From: Bryobacterales bacterium
GTDB lineage: Bacteria; Acidobacteriota; Terriglobia; Bryobacterales; Bryobacteraceae
Direction of reading: 5' to 3'
DNA length: 64,000 nt
Assembly: GCA_003164035.1 (NCBI GenBank)
Contig: PLRS01000073.1
Span: forward strand, 61,479-125,478
In this document: positions 33,264-41,659 of the stretch, piece after piece
Numbering within the stretch: the first letter of the stretch is position 1
How the letters are laid out: each line of letters begins with the position of its first letter
Translations under genes and position numbers: made by a program
The notes under the pieces: generated by a model
The model's input: the letters and a program-made list of their open reading frames with translations, nothing else
What the model was told of the DNA's origin: nothing
Databases searched by the model: none

Positions 33264-33279
33264 TGCAACCCGAGTTCCA
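33264..33279 (-). promoter_or_regulatory. Sigma-54 promoter (-24/-12) of nifSVW
   Basis: On the minus strand the sequence is TGGAACTCGGGTTGCA, with GG and GC separated by exactly 10 bases and the strong TTGCA -12 box. The -24 box differs from TGGCAC by one base. It lies about 100 bases before the nifS start and 61 bases from a perfect NifA site. Confidence 0.8.
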
Positions 33280-33339: not shown

Positions 33340-33355
33340 TGTCAGGTTTGCGACA
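33340..33355. promoter_or_regulatory. NifA upstream activator site (nifS/nifA spacer)
   Basis: TGTCAGGTTTGCGACA, an exact TGT-N10-ACA. It is flanked so that the dyad extends to CTTGTC...GACAAG. It is 61 bases upstream of the nifSVW -24/-12 element and about 210 bases before nifA, so it could also influence nifA. Confidence 0.8.
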
Positions 33356-35478: not shown

Positions 35479-35518
35479 CTGAACCGCCGCAATTCCGTGT
35501 TTGGAAGCGAGGGAAAAC

Positions 35519-37078
35519 ATGCAAGGGGTGGCACAGCAACCGGTCGTCCAACTAACGGTGCTGCAACCGAGCAGCGAGACGATGCAGAAGATTGCCGGGC
35601 ACAAGGGATGCGCCACACAGGGCGGCAGCGGCAAAGCCAGTTGCGGGTCGGGAGCGGGCCAGGGCGACCTGGCGCCGGAGATTTGGGAGAAAATCAAGAA
35701 CCACCCATGCTACAGCGAAGAAGCGCACCACCACTACGCGCGCATGCACGTGGCGGTGGCGCCGGCTTGCAACATTCAATGCAATTACTGCAACCGCAAG
35801 TACGACTGCGCCAATGAGTCGCGGCCCGGCGTGGTAAGCGAGAAACTGACTCCGGAACAGGCGGCTAAGAAAGTCCTGGCCGTGGCTTCCACCATTCCGC
35901 AAATGACGGTGCTTGGGATCGCGGGGCCGGGAGATCCGCTGGCCAACCCCGCGAAGACTTTCAAGACGTTTGAGCTGATCGCGAAAACCGCGCCCGATAT
36001 CAAGCTCTGCCTGTCGACCAACGGTCTGATGCTTCCCGATCGCGTGGACACCATCAAGAACTTCAATGTGGATCACGTCACCATCACCATCAACATGACG
36101 GATCCCGAGATCGGCGCCAAAATCTACCCGTGGGTGTACTACAAGCACAAACGCTACACCGGGGTGGAAGGGGCCAAAATTCTCAGCGAGCGGCAATTGC
36201 AAGGCCTCGAGATGCTGACCGAGCGCGGCATCCTGTGCAAGGTGAACTCGGTGATGATTCCGGGCGTCAACGACAAGCACCTGGTGGAGGTAAATCGGGC
36301 GGTTAAGTCGCGCGGAGCCTTCCTGCACAACATCATGCCGCTGATTTCCGCGCCGGAGCATGGAACGGTGTTCGGCTTGACCGGGCAGCGCGGCCCCTCG
36401 GCCCAGGAACTAAAGGCGCTGCAGGACGGTTGCGAAGGCGAAATGAACATGATGCGGCATTGCCGCCAGTGCCGCGCCGACGCGGTGGGCCTGCTGGGCG
36501 AGGATCGCAGCGCCGAGTTCACCACCGACAAGATCATGGACCGGGAGGTCGACTACGACCTCGAAACGCGCAAGGCTTACCAGGAGAAAGTGGAAGAAGA
36601 GCGCCAGGCCAAGGTGGCGGCGAAACAAGCCGAACTCGAGACCCTGGCGGGCGAGCGGAGCGACATCAAGGTCCTGGTGGCGGTGGCCACCAAGGGCAGC
36701 GGGCGCATCAACGAGCATTTCGGCCACGCCAAGGAGTTCCAGGTGTACGAGCTGTCGACGGCGGGGGCGAAATTCGTGGGACACCGCCGCGTGGACCTGT
36801 ACTGCCAGGGCGGCTATGGAGAGGAAGACAGCCTCGACACCGTCATCCGCGCCATCAACGACTGCGCCGCGGTGTTGGTGGCCAAGATCGGCGGCTGCCC
36901 CAAGGAGACGCTGAGGAAAGCCGGCATCGAGCCGGTGGACAAGTACGCCCTGGAATTCATCGAGCAATCCGCCATCGCCTACTTCAGGGAATACGTGGAG
37001 AAGGTAAAGACGGGCGAGATCCAACACGTGGAACCCGGCGATGCGGCGATCCGCCAGGGCGCGCTGGTGGCGGCGTGA
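35519..37078 (+). CDS. nifB: FeMo cofactor biosynthesis protein NifB
   Basis: 519 residues from ATG 35519 after 'GCGAGGGAAAAC'. The radical-SAM domain has Cys84, Cys88 and Cys91 in '[20 protein letters not shown]', plus '[12 protein letters not shown]' and '[15 protein letters not shown]' with further cluster cysteines. A C-terminal NifX/NafY-like domain runs from about residue 385 to 500 ('[20 protein letters not shown]', '[16 protein letters not shown]'). It makes the NifB-co [8Fe-9S-C] precursor of FeMo-co. It leads a co-directional run through nifT. Confidence 0.98.
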
Positions 37079-37765: not shown

Positions 37766-38047
37766 ATGGGAGAGATCAGCCGCGACAGCGACGTGGTGGA
37801 ACTGGACGGCCCGCCGGCTTATGACTACGGCGCCAAGGTGCGCTCGCGCCGTACGATTCGCAACGACGGCACATTCCCGGGAAAGGACATCGGTGAAATC
37901 CTGGTGAAAAAAGGCGAGGAAGGTTACGTCACCAGCATTGGCACGTTTCTGCAGCAGTTTTACATCTACGGGGTGGAATTCATCGCCTCCGGTTATCGCG
38001 TCGGTATGAAGCGCAAAGAGCTGGAGACGCTGGAACAGCATGATTGA
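37766..38047 (+). CDS. nifZ: NifZ-domain protein (first copy)
   Basis: 93 residues from ATG 37766. 'YDYGAKVRSRRTIRNDGTFPGKD', 'GEILVKKGEEGYVTSIGTFLQQ' and 'FYIYGVEFIASGYRVGMKRKEL' match NifZ, which assists P-cluster formation in the MoFe protein. It overlaps the next gene, also NifZ-like, by 8 bases. The split into two small proteins is noted as a finding. Confidence 0.9.
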   Translation: MGEISRDSDVVELDGPPAYDYGAKVRSRRTIRNDGTFPGKDIGEILVKKGEEGYVTSIGTFLQQFYIYGVEFIASGYRVGMKRKELETLEQHD

Positions 38048-38282
38048 ACCGCGCACGCCCAGATACGATTGGGGCCAGCGAGTGCGGGCCTGCCAGGACC
38101 TGTACAACGACGGTTCCTATCCCGAGGTTGCCGAGGACGCCCTGCTGGTGAATACGGGCGACACAGGCGAGATCGTCAATGTGGGAACGCATGTCGAGTC
38201 GAACACGCCGGTCTACATGGTGGAGTTCCCGGCCAATCGCGTGGTGGGCTGTCTGGAAGAAGAGATTGCGCCGGCGGAATGA
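38040..38282 (+). CDS. NifZ-domain protein (second copy)
   Basis: 80 residues from ATG 38040, overlapping the first nifZ. 'PRYDWGQRVRACQDLYNDGSYP', 'LLVNTGDTGEIVNVGTHVES' and 'NTPVYMVEFPANRVVGCLEEEI' form a second NifZ-type SH3-like module. The two copies share the 'Y(D/E)(Y/W)G..VR.....NDG(T/S)(F/Y)P' opening but are otherwise diverged. Confidence 0.87.
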   Translation: MIEPRTPRYDWGQRVRACQDLYNDGSYPEVAEDALLVNTGDTGEIVNVGTHVESNTPVYMVEFPANRVVGCLEEEIAPAE

Positions 38283-38654: not shown

Positions 38655-38864
38655 ATGAAAGTGATGATCCGCAAGAATTCGGACGGTGAGCTGTCGGCCT
38701 ATATCGCCAAGAAAGACCTGGAAGAGCCCATCGTCGCGATGGAGAATCCGCGGATGTGGGGCGGGCGGGTCACTCTCGCCAACGGCTGGCAGCTTGCCTT
38801 GCCGGATCTCAACTCCGACACCCGGCTGCCGATTACCGTGGAGGCCCGCCGGTTGGGGGAATAG
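38655..38864 (+). CDS. nifT: NifT/FixU protein
   Basis: 69 residues. ATG 38655 gives the family N-terminus 'MKVMIRKNSDGELSAYIAKKDLEEP', with 'AAGGGA' upstream; ATG 38634 would add seven residues. 'WGGRVTLANGWQLALPDL' and 'TRLPITVEARRL' complete the NifT/FixU signature. The function is not essential and remains unclear in model diazotrophs. It is the last gene of the nifB transcript before the next promoter. Confidence 0.95.
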   Translation: MKVMIRKNSDGELSAYIAKKDLEEPIVAMENPRMWGGRVTLANGWQLALPDLNSDTRLPITVEARRLGE

Positions 38865-38961: not shown

Positions 38962-38977
38962 TGTCGGTATCCCGACA
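38962..38977. promoter_or_regulatory. NifA upstream activator site of the SIR2-like gene
   Basis: TGTCGGTATCCCGACA, an exact TGT-N10-ACA that extends to a near-perfect dyad (TGTCGG / CCCGACA). It is 56 bases before a consensus sigma-54 promoter. Confidence 0.88.
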
Positions 38978-39032
38978 AGCCAATTGTCGCTGCCTGCCGC
39001 CGAAGGCGCTTTGTCTTCAGAATCTTGCCGGT

Positions 39033-39048
39033 TGGCACTGCAGTTGCA
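39033..39048 (+). promoter_or_regulatory. Sigma-54 promoter (-24/-12) of the SIR2-like gene
   Basis: TGGCACTGCAGTTGCA, a full consensus TGGCAC-N5-TTGCA with GG-N10-GC, 41 bases before ATG 39090. Together with the NifA site it makes the downstream SIR2-like and Mop genes members of the nif regulon. Confidence 0.94.
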
Positions 39049-39089
39049 ATGCTCCCATATGGAAATTCGCGTAAGCAGCGAGGCTATTC

Positions 39090-39941
39090 ATGAACGCACT
39101 GACGATAGACACCATTCACGCCGCCTTGATGGACGGTCGCGCAATTCCCTATCTCGGACCGGGAGTGCTGGGCTTCGGCGCCGACGGGAGCCCGCTTCCG
39201 GCCTCCCACGAGGCACTGGCCGCCAAGCTGACGGCAAAGAGCAGCGTGCCGTTCAAGATCCGCAAGAACCTGACGGCCGCGGCGCAGTTCATCGAAAACT
39301 TCAAGCACCGCAAGACGGTGAAACAGGCAATGGTGGAAGCGTTTCGCGATGGGGCCGATCCCACCGGGCTGCACCGCTATCTCGCCACCCTGCCTTCGCT
39401 GCCGCTGGTGGTCCACGCCTGGTACGACGATCTGCCGCAGCGGGCCTTCGCCGAGCGCGGCCGCTGGGGCATGGTACAGGGCGTGAGTCAGGCCGAACAC
39501 TTCGGATCCTGGGTACACCATTTCGGCTCCGACGGCGCGCCCGCCACCGCCAGCAACGCCTGGAATACGCTGCTGTATCAGCCGTTGGGCTCGGTTTGGC
39601 CGGCAGGCAACTTTCTGGTCTCGGATTCGGACTTCGTCGAAGTGCTTACGGAGATCGACATTCAGACGCCCATTCCCGAGTCCGTGCAACATCTTCGGGC
39701 AGGCCGGAATTTCCTGTTCCTGGGCTGCCGGTTCTCGACCCAGCTCGAGCGCCTCTTCGCGCGCCAGATCATGAAGCGGTCGTCGAACCGGCACTGGGCG
39801 GTCCTACCGGAAGAGCCGACCAGGAACGAGGCCCGGTTCCTGGAGCAATACCAGATCGAGCGTATCGACGCTCCCCTGCCTGAGTTCATAGAAGCTCTGG
39901 AGGAAATTCTGGCAAGCCCGGGCATGCGGATGGCTAGTTAG
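39090..39941 (+). CDS. SIR2-like NAD-binding-fold protein under NifA/sigma-54 control
   Basis: 283 residues from ATG 39090, with 'GCGAGG' upstream. N-terminal 'IPYLGPGVLGFGADGSPLPASHEALAAKL' resembles the nucleotide-binding opening of SIR2-like (SIR2_2) domains, which usually read GAGxS. C-terminal 'LRAGRNFLFLGCRFSTQLERLF' and 'RNEARFLEQYQIERIDAPLPEFIEAL' match the end of that fold. The centre has 'LPSLPLVVHAWYDDLPQRA'. Sirtuin zinc cysteines are not seen. It could be a deacylase, an NAD hydrolase or a binding-only protein. Its own nif-type promoter is the best functional clue. Confidence 0.75.
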   Translation: MNALTIDTIHAALMDGRAIPYLGPGVLGFGADGSPLPASHEALAAKLTAKSSVPFKIRKNLTAAAQFIENFKHRKTVKQAMVEAFRDGADPTGLHRYLATLPSLPLVVHAWYDDLPQRAFAERGRWGMVQGVSQAEHFGSWVHHFGSDGAPATASNAWNTLLYQPLGSVWPAGNFLVSDSDFVEVLTEIDIQTPIPESVQHLRAGRNFLFLGCRFSTQLERLFARQIMKRSSNRHWAVLPEEPTRNEARFLEQYQIERIDAPLPEFIEALEEILASPGMRMAS

Positions 39942-40004
39942 TTAACCGAAGCACAAACACCAGCCAGAGAGGGCCATTTTCTTGTATGATTGAGGCACAC
40001 GACT

Positions 40005-40211
40005 ATGGCACTTTCCGCACGTAACAAACTGAATGGCCGCATCGAGCAACTGAAACTCGGCGACATCATGGCGCACGTGTTCGTTCGCGTCGGGGACAAC
40101 ATTATTGAGAGCGTGATTACGCGAATCAGCGCTGAGGAAATGAATCTTAGCGTGGGCGATTCGGTGAAAATTGTAGTCAAGTCCACCGAGGTCATGATCC
40201 AAAAGGACTAG
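40005..40211 (+). CDS. Mop/TOBE-domain molybdate-binding protein (molbindin)
   Basis: 68 residues from ATG 40005. 'LSARNKLNGRIEQLKLGDIMAHVFV' and 'VITRISAEEMNLSVGDSVKIVVKSTEVMI' are a single Mop domain of the type that oligomerises to bind molybdate or tungstate. It lies 63 bases after the SIR2-like gene and probably shares its transcript. It would buffer intracellular molybdate for FeMo-co assembly, upstream of NifQ. Confidence 0.92.
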   Translation: MALSARNKLNGRIEQLKLGDIMAHVFVRVGDNIIESVITRISAEEMNLSVGDSVKIVVKSTEVMIQKD

Positions 40212-40224
40212 CCGATCCGGCCGA

Positions 40225-40449
40225 TCATTTCCGGGTGGAACGCGAGTAACGCCACCGGAATGAAATCCGCACCAGATCCGGCTTCCAATCGCGAGCCTCG
40301 GCAAGAGCCGCGTCCAGACTCGCCAGTTCGCGAGCCTCGTTTTCATCGTGCAGCATAAACTGCAGCACGGCGCGGTCGATTTCGTCGCTATCCACTACAA
40401 AGACGCGCTGATTCTCCACGGCGCCTGACGTTTCCACTCCGATTTGCAT
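40225..40449 (-). pseudogene. Truncated receiver-domain-like protein (possibly frameshifted)
   Basis: A 74-codon frame on the minus strand. 'RVFVVDSDEIDRAVLQFMLHDE', then 'ELASLDAALAEARDWKPDLV', is the first half of a CheY-like receiver (beta1, acidic pair, alpha1, to just before the phosphoacceptor strand). The frame then turns basic ('RISFRWRYSRSTRK') and stops. A neighbouring frame reads 'ADFIPVALLAFHPEMIGRIG' to a stop at about 40210, so a one-base shift is possible. It could instead be a genuine small protein. It is convergent with the Mop gene and divergent from nifH. Confidence 0.5.

Positions 40450-40711: not shown

Positions 40712-41659
<948 letters not shown>

Follow-up and report, generated by a model that had tools for sequence, protein, structure and literature searches.

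A nitrogen-fixation-linked SIR2-family protein with replaced NAD-cleaving residues as a possible accessory of nitrogenase

Among the nitrogen-fixation (nif) genes on a 64,000-nucleotide stretch of contig PLRS01000073.1 from a Bryobacterales bacterium (assembly GCA_003164035.1; this whole stretch is henceforth termed the window) lies a gene for a SIR2-like protein of 283 residues. Here, we find that this protein belongs to a nif-linked branch of the SIR2 family and that both of its residues at the positions that cleave nicotinamide adenine dinucleotide (NAD) are replaced. We propose that it is a non-catalytic accessory that would help keep nitrogenase active, probably at a step after transcription and mainly during respiration, a reading to which we assign a probability of roughly 0.47. 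What makes a non-enzymatic helper the likely kind of role is that both NAD-cutting residues are replaced and that, in the sampled genomes, the family is nearly always found with nif genes. A first-pass annotation of the window had put the gene forward as a candidate for an undescribed function; this does not hold, since relatives are in print, including mutants of pnfA and msi351 and the NifA-dependent protein Rcc03262. The gene belongs to a nif-linked family of the Msi351/PnfA type that is already described, if poorly understood, and does not constitute a new system. What is new is the analysis of the catalytic residues, the connection to PnfA through two classes, and the test of co-occurrence with nif genes.

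A SIR2 fold with a replaced catalytic pair

The open reading frame (ORF) matches the Pfam family SIR2_2 (PF13289, E 1.3e-20), and its model, with a predicted local distance difference test score (pLDDT) of 91.6, has the SIR2 fold, in agreement with the identity given in the first-pass annotation. No second domain was found with Pfam in its 283 residues. Homologues are numerous (4827 at E <= 1e-3 among 7999 candidates scored, not all of which were checked for class). The closest solved folds are the defence NADases ThsA, DSR2 and KomC, and PADLOC returns a ThsA match (E 3.1e-5). In alignments of the window protein, however, Trp111 and Leu166 occupy the positions of the catalytic Asn and His of ThsA, so that neither residue required in ThsA is present. 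The protein therefore differs from these SIR2 NADases in the replaced pair, the lack of a second domain and its nif context. Sirtuin deacylases are marked by a four-Cys zinc site; the window protein has one Cys in total and thus no such site of the CobB type.

Two classes can be distinguished within the family. In class I, to which the window protein belongs, W-Y-D stands in place of the canonical N-Y-D, and the canonical x-H-G is mostly replaced by P-L-G, P-F-G or P-I-G. Class II has N-R-D and mostly P-M-G, with Met, Leu or Ile in the His position. Trp is found in 217 of 217 class I rows, with His in four of these, and Asn in 136 of 136 class II rows, with His in none; some rows in these sets are the same protein reached twice. 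Asn and His occur together in none of the 353 family rows, which makes NADase, deacylase and defence roles unlikely. The NAD-consuming functions raised in the first-pass annotation, i.e., NADase defence or NAD-dependent modification of nitrogenase, are thereby disfavored. As a control, all 29 new SIR2_2 loci from related genomes keep TTN-x-D and HG; this set holds only the best SIR2_2 matches, two of them recognised on a second look, and does not include L096, a third SIR2_2 protein of the window's genome that has the Asn motif and no clear HG. A description of the family as pseudoenzymes was not found in a limited set of searches of the open-access literature.

Loss of the His throughout the family was considered and rejected, as four alphaproteobacterial rows keep it. 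These correspond to a class I branch (L099-L102) with His at position 166 and Trp for the Asn, and the His may hence have been lost after the Asn. One member of this branch, L102 (genome G553), has one in-frame TGA counted inside its class I match. In the long frames of three other loci (L111, L112, L116), no clear second domain was seen in the parts scanned, which exclude the N-terminal parts.

In a tree of 51 chosen rows, for which a long-branch warning was issued, the family forms one clade apart from ordinary SIR2_2 proteins, with class I (support 94/91), class II (100/99) and four canonical proteins (100/99) each on one side of a branch; L003, L094, L097 and L129, being short or duplicate, are left out. 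The classes also differ in arrangement: of 15 class II loci, nine have the gene divergent from nifH, and six show no nifH in the sequenced stretch examined.

Co-occurrence with nitrogen-fixation genes

We analyzed the neighborhoods of the best 80 of at least 521 confirmed genome loci. These span Acidobacteriota, Fibrobacterota, Binatota and many Proteobacteria, and have NifT upstream in 74 cases; NifZ is found in 73 loci and NifB in 70. Where NifT is missing, in six loci, 289 to 2099 bases separate the start of the gene from the end of the locus. The co-occurrence with nifT and nifZ across phyla that the first-pass annotation had suggested as a check is thus seen, and its view of the gene as a nif gene whose homologues track nif stands. 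The gap between nifT and the SIR2-like gene varies, measuring 225 bases in the window and 15 bases in four Acidobacteriota loci. The interval in L091 (6921-8983) encodes a DegT-type aminotransferase and a 2Fe-2S ferredoxin, flanked by a small protein on either side, and ORFs akin to this insert recur at the same place in many proteobacterial loci. A similar protein is found in 76 plasmid records, 69 of them from Rhizobium, Sinorhizobium or Mesorhizobium (class unchecked per record). All four plasmid neighborhoods inspected are nif regions, with the gene directly behind nifT on three rhizobial or Bradyrhizobium plasmids and with four genes in between on the fourth, from Methylococcus.

Presence of the gene follows nifD in sampled genomes. 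Of 289 alphaproteobacterial genomes, nine have nifD, and six of these carry the gene, against none of the 280 that lack nifD (Fisher p = 3.5e-9 without the centre genome; the alpha- and gammaproteobacterial centre genomes were chosen as gene carriers). Among 312 gammaproteobacterial genomes, 26 have a family match, comprising 24 of the 28 with nifD and two without. One of these two, G836, was dropped as a nif-less carrier, because the TTNYD and MHG motifs are retained in its protein, which falls among the canonical SIR2_2 proteins. In the other, G751, a nifH piece (80% identical over 196 residues) adjoins the gene at the contig end. Without G836 as a carrier, the comparison becomes 24 of 28 against 1 of 284 (p = 1.1e-30, or 1.1e-29 minus the centre genome).

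Among the relatives themselves, nifD was assessed for 50 of the 80 loci, from 49 genomes, of which 38 have nifD over the cut-off and 42 have a match. Four of the seven genomes without a nifD match (those of L046, L052, L059 and L076) have other nif genes in the locus. The remaining three loci (L025, L062, L075) have no nif genes apart from a 35%-identical NifA-like match in L062, and their genes start 289-910 bases from a contig end. A phylum-wide survey offered little to compare, as nifB was over the cut-off in only 2 of 297 genomes; the SIR2-like matches come from the window's genome and from G115, whose protein carries canonical motifs. Overall, the family nearly always accompanies nitrogen-fixation genes in the sampled genomes.

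Local promoter, Mop neighbor and gene order

The sequence TGGCACTGCAGTTGCA at 39033-39048 ends 41 bases before the ATG at 39090. It fits the -24/-12 pattern TGGCAY-N5-TTGCW in full and TGGCACG-N4-TTGCW at 15 of 16 positions. This pattern occurs twice in the 64 kb against 0.15 expected, before nifB and before the SIR2-like gene, whereas the NifA pattern TGT-N10-ACA, found eight times with 4.6 expected, is weak evidence when taken alone. Since the two elements are laid out as they are at nifB, a real promoter in front of the window's SIR2-like gene is likely; read-through from nifB may also contribute to its transcription. The exact activator site, the full-consensus promoter and the 41-base spacing described in the first-pass annotation were all confirmed in the sequence.

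The private NifA/sigma-54 unit of SIR2-like and Mop genes built on these elements fared less well. The elements are there in the window, but the unit is not seen in relatives and looks local: in the 500 bases upstream of the gene, the -24/-12 pattern is missing from all 78 relatives whose sequence reaches far enough, and TGT-N10-ACA is present in six of them. Before nifB and nifH of the same relatives, both elements are found in 39 of 63 and 36 of 40 cases, respectively, and a conserved private unit was consequently rejected. A looser TGGC-N8-GC pattern lies within 400 bases in 16 of 79 relatives, which we take as chance, no control having been run for it.

The Mop neighbor appears equally local. 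The ORF behind the SIR2-like gene is a Mop/TOBE protein by family match, as annotated, and the two genes may form one transcription unit. A conserved Mop partner was rejected, as no Mop match was found among ORFs in the 4 kb downstream of the gene in 80 loci, 72 of which have at least 1 kb downstream; the one 68-residue query may miss distant Mops. A Mop match anywhere was found in two of the 80 loci, more than 6 kb upstream and on the opposite strand. Private promoter and Mop neighbor are therefore best described as features of the window, and the latter is shared with Rhodobacter capsulatus as judged by locus-tag order only. In the window, the Mop partner may tie the unit to molybdate supply.

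On the plus strand, the window carries nifA, nifB, a ferredoxin, an IscA-like protein, two nifZ, DUF3024 and nifT, followed by the SIR2-like gene, Mop, nifH, nifD, nifK and nifE (Table 1); the ferredoxin, nifD, nifK and nifE are named by translation and not by family scan. Genes resembling nifV and nifS lie on the minus strand. Between nifS and nifA, a sigma-54-like site (14/16) at 33279 (minus strand) and a TGT-N10-ACA site at 33340 (plus strand) possibly serve nifSV. Behind the Mop gene, the minus strand at 40225-40449 holds the remnant of a response-regulator-like receiver-domain gene, whose frame stops soon after. Its 63 residues are 68% identical to a protein matched in 23 of 80 loci, in 15 of which it is seen behind the SIR2-like gene, encoded on the minus strand.

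Table 1. Features around the SIR2-like gene, in window positions.
Feature	Position	Strand	Basis or remark
NifA site and -24/-12 promoter before nifB	35402 and 35463		pattern match
nifB	35501..37078	+	heads the gene run carrying the SIR2-like gene in relatives
nifZ, first of two	37766..38047	+	family scan
nifZ, second of two	38040..38282	+	family scan
nifT	38655..38864	+	most constant upstream neighbor of the family
NifA upstream activator site TGT-N10-ACA	38962..38977	+	exact pattern match
Predicted sigma-54 -24/-12 promoter of SIR2-like gene	39033..39048	+	pattern match
nif-linked SIR2_2 protein, 283 aa, 852 bp	39090..39941	+	Pfam PF13289, alignments, model
Mop/TOBE protein, 68 aa	40005..40211	+	63 bases past the SIR2 stop; family match
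NifA sites before nifH	40532 and 40562		pattern match
nifH	40778..41659	+	downstream of SIR2-like gene, same strand

Published relatives and a possible role

The most informative relative is PnfA (PST1325) of Pseudomonas stutzeri A1501, encoded divergently from nifHDK under NifA-sigma-54 control (PMC2820453). A non-polar pnfA mutant has 23% nitrogenase activity at 0.5% O2 with unchanged nifH transcription, and complementation restores activity (data not shown in that paper). Under argon, activity resembles the wild type, and with nitrate as acceptor fixation is lost. The authors noted similarity to UspA and ETF, the sections concerned not naming SIR2, and mentioned a second subfamily, with 20% identity, that may correspond to our class I. 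PST_1325 was later listed as a SIR2 family protein (PMC11332353). Like 9 of 15 class II loci, pnfA is divergent from nifH; unlike the window protein, class II keeps the Asn and has Met, Leu or Ile for the His.

Closer to the window in gene order is msi351 of Mesorhizobium loti R7A, a sirtuin-like gene at the end of the NifA-RpoN operon nifB-fdxN-nifZ-fixU-msi351 (PMC3538637). We liken it to the window gene by description rather than by its own sequence: it follows nifT/fixU and is annotated as sirtuin-like, whereas it is listed under the nifB promoter, has no named Mop partner and gives no nodule phenotype when mutated. The same paper reports a complete cluster in R. etli CFN42; L090, the protein from R. 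etli, shares 44% identity with that of the window. In R. capsulatus, the SIR2 family protein Rcc03262 lies between Mop and NifT by tag number, the order seen in the window, a comparison made by tags and table only. It has a level in the wild type and is listed as NF in delta-nifA, and its Mop neighbor is still made there (PMC6925177). Zymomonas ZMO1821, listed in the nif cluster (PMC8594446), increases under N2-fixing conditions and has been regarded as a probable deacetylase (PMC8600466). A SIR2-like gene is listed after nifT in Rhodovulum (PMC9412634), and the relevant parts of two further papers (PMC6053447 and PMC10581106) add no function for the family.

A helper role fits the nif linkage, the dispensability of the gene in some diazotrophs, the respiratory-acceptor defect of the pnfA mutant, which is post-transcriptional, and the replacement of the NAD residues. 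In such a role, the window protein would act like PnfA by binding a nitrogenase component, or partners in its electron supply or maturation. The protein may bind nucleotides in a non-canonical manner, its remodelled pocket sensing or holding one without cutting it. A narrower proposal is a pseudo-sirtuin without NAD cleavage that would bind NADH, NAD or ADP-ribose, or have no ligand at all. Depending on the respiratory state, it would gate nitrogenase, or the supply of electrons to it, through contact, and in the window it would be wired to the molybdate-binding Mop partner; this seems to us possible but rather doubtful.

Several points weigh against the accessory proposal. The evidence that Leu166 takes the place of the His comes chiefly from aligning the protein with ordinary SIR2_2 proteins by profile, the ThsA sequence match being weak alone. 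Loss of the His is not universal: besides the four class I rows, two of the four plasmid proteins have it, the others having Tyr and Leu, with Trp for the Asn in all four. The class II assignment of PnfA relies on its gene order and name rather than on its own sequence, and identity to the window protein is only 24-29% for eight class II proteins. Moreover, the gene is dispensable, as growth on nitrogen-free medium persists in the pnfA mutant (PMC2820453) and 3 of 9 alphaproteobacterial and 4 of 28 gammaproteobacterial genomes with nifD lack it. Finally, the msi351 mutant, from an operon with class I gene order, is fully effective in nodules (PMC3538637), which limits the helper claim: in the nodule, the class I gene was not required.

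Alternatively, the protein could be no redox-linked helper and instead work alongside NifB, FdxN, NifZ and NifT as a chaperone or maturation factor of NifDK or NifH. The gene order is consistent with it, as relatives carry the gene in a nifB-fdxN-iscA-nifZ-nifT run with no promoter of its own seen, and the three plasmids with the gene directly after nifT agree. We nevertheless consider it unlikely, since nifZ and fdxN mutants are Fix- and the msi351 mutant is not (PMC3538637), and since a general maturation defect would not leave the pnfA mutant wild-type-like without oxygen or nitrate (PMC2820453). Still less probable is an enzyme of altered chemistry, with the SIR2 pocket acting on a different substrate. 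The 46 invariant positions in 81 sequences, among them an SDxDxVExxTEIDIQ stretch and Cys213, are as compatible with an active site as with a binding surface, yet class II does not conserve Cys213 and Gln218, and no replacement catalytic pair is identifiable.

An NAD-dependent deacylase acting on nitrogenase or NifA was predicted for ZMO1821 by authors who report acetylated NifA, NifH and NifK (PMC8600466). With Trp for the SIR2 Asn in every class I row and no zinc site, we regard this as improbable for the window protein. A NADase that defends nitrogen-fixing cells against phage, as the nearest folds and the PADLOC match would suggest, is very improbable given the replacement of both ThsA residues and neighbors that are nif genes. 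We see hardly any chance that the protein replaces DraT/DraG in reversible control of NifH: the window's whole genome has no DraT (PF07357) match and its NifH keeps the arginine in GRGVIT, which we take to be the DraT target, both as the first-pass annotation had it (DraG, which it also called absent, was not searched for), but the residues for NAD use are replaced and DraT coexists with the gene in 6 of 10 other class I genomes, so that a general stand-in role is unlikely.

Several homologues are named NAD-dependent deacylase or SIR2 protein in databases, and if the catalytic pair is gone, these names mislead. The pnfA phenotype, with normal nitrogenase mRNA and poor activity under respiration, would then become a question about a binding protein. 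The finding also bears on the choice of genes when nif clusters are moved into new hosts.
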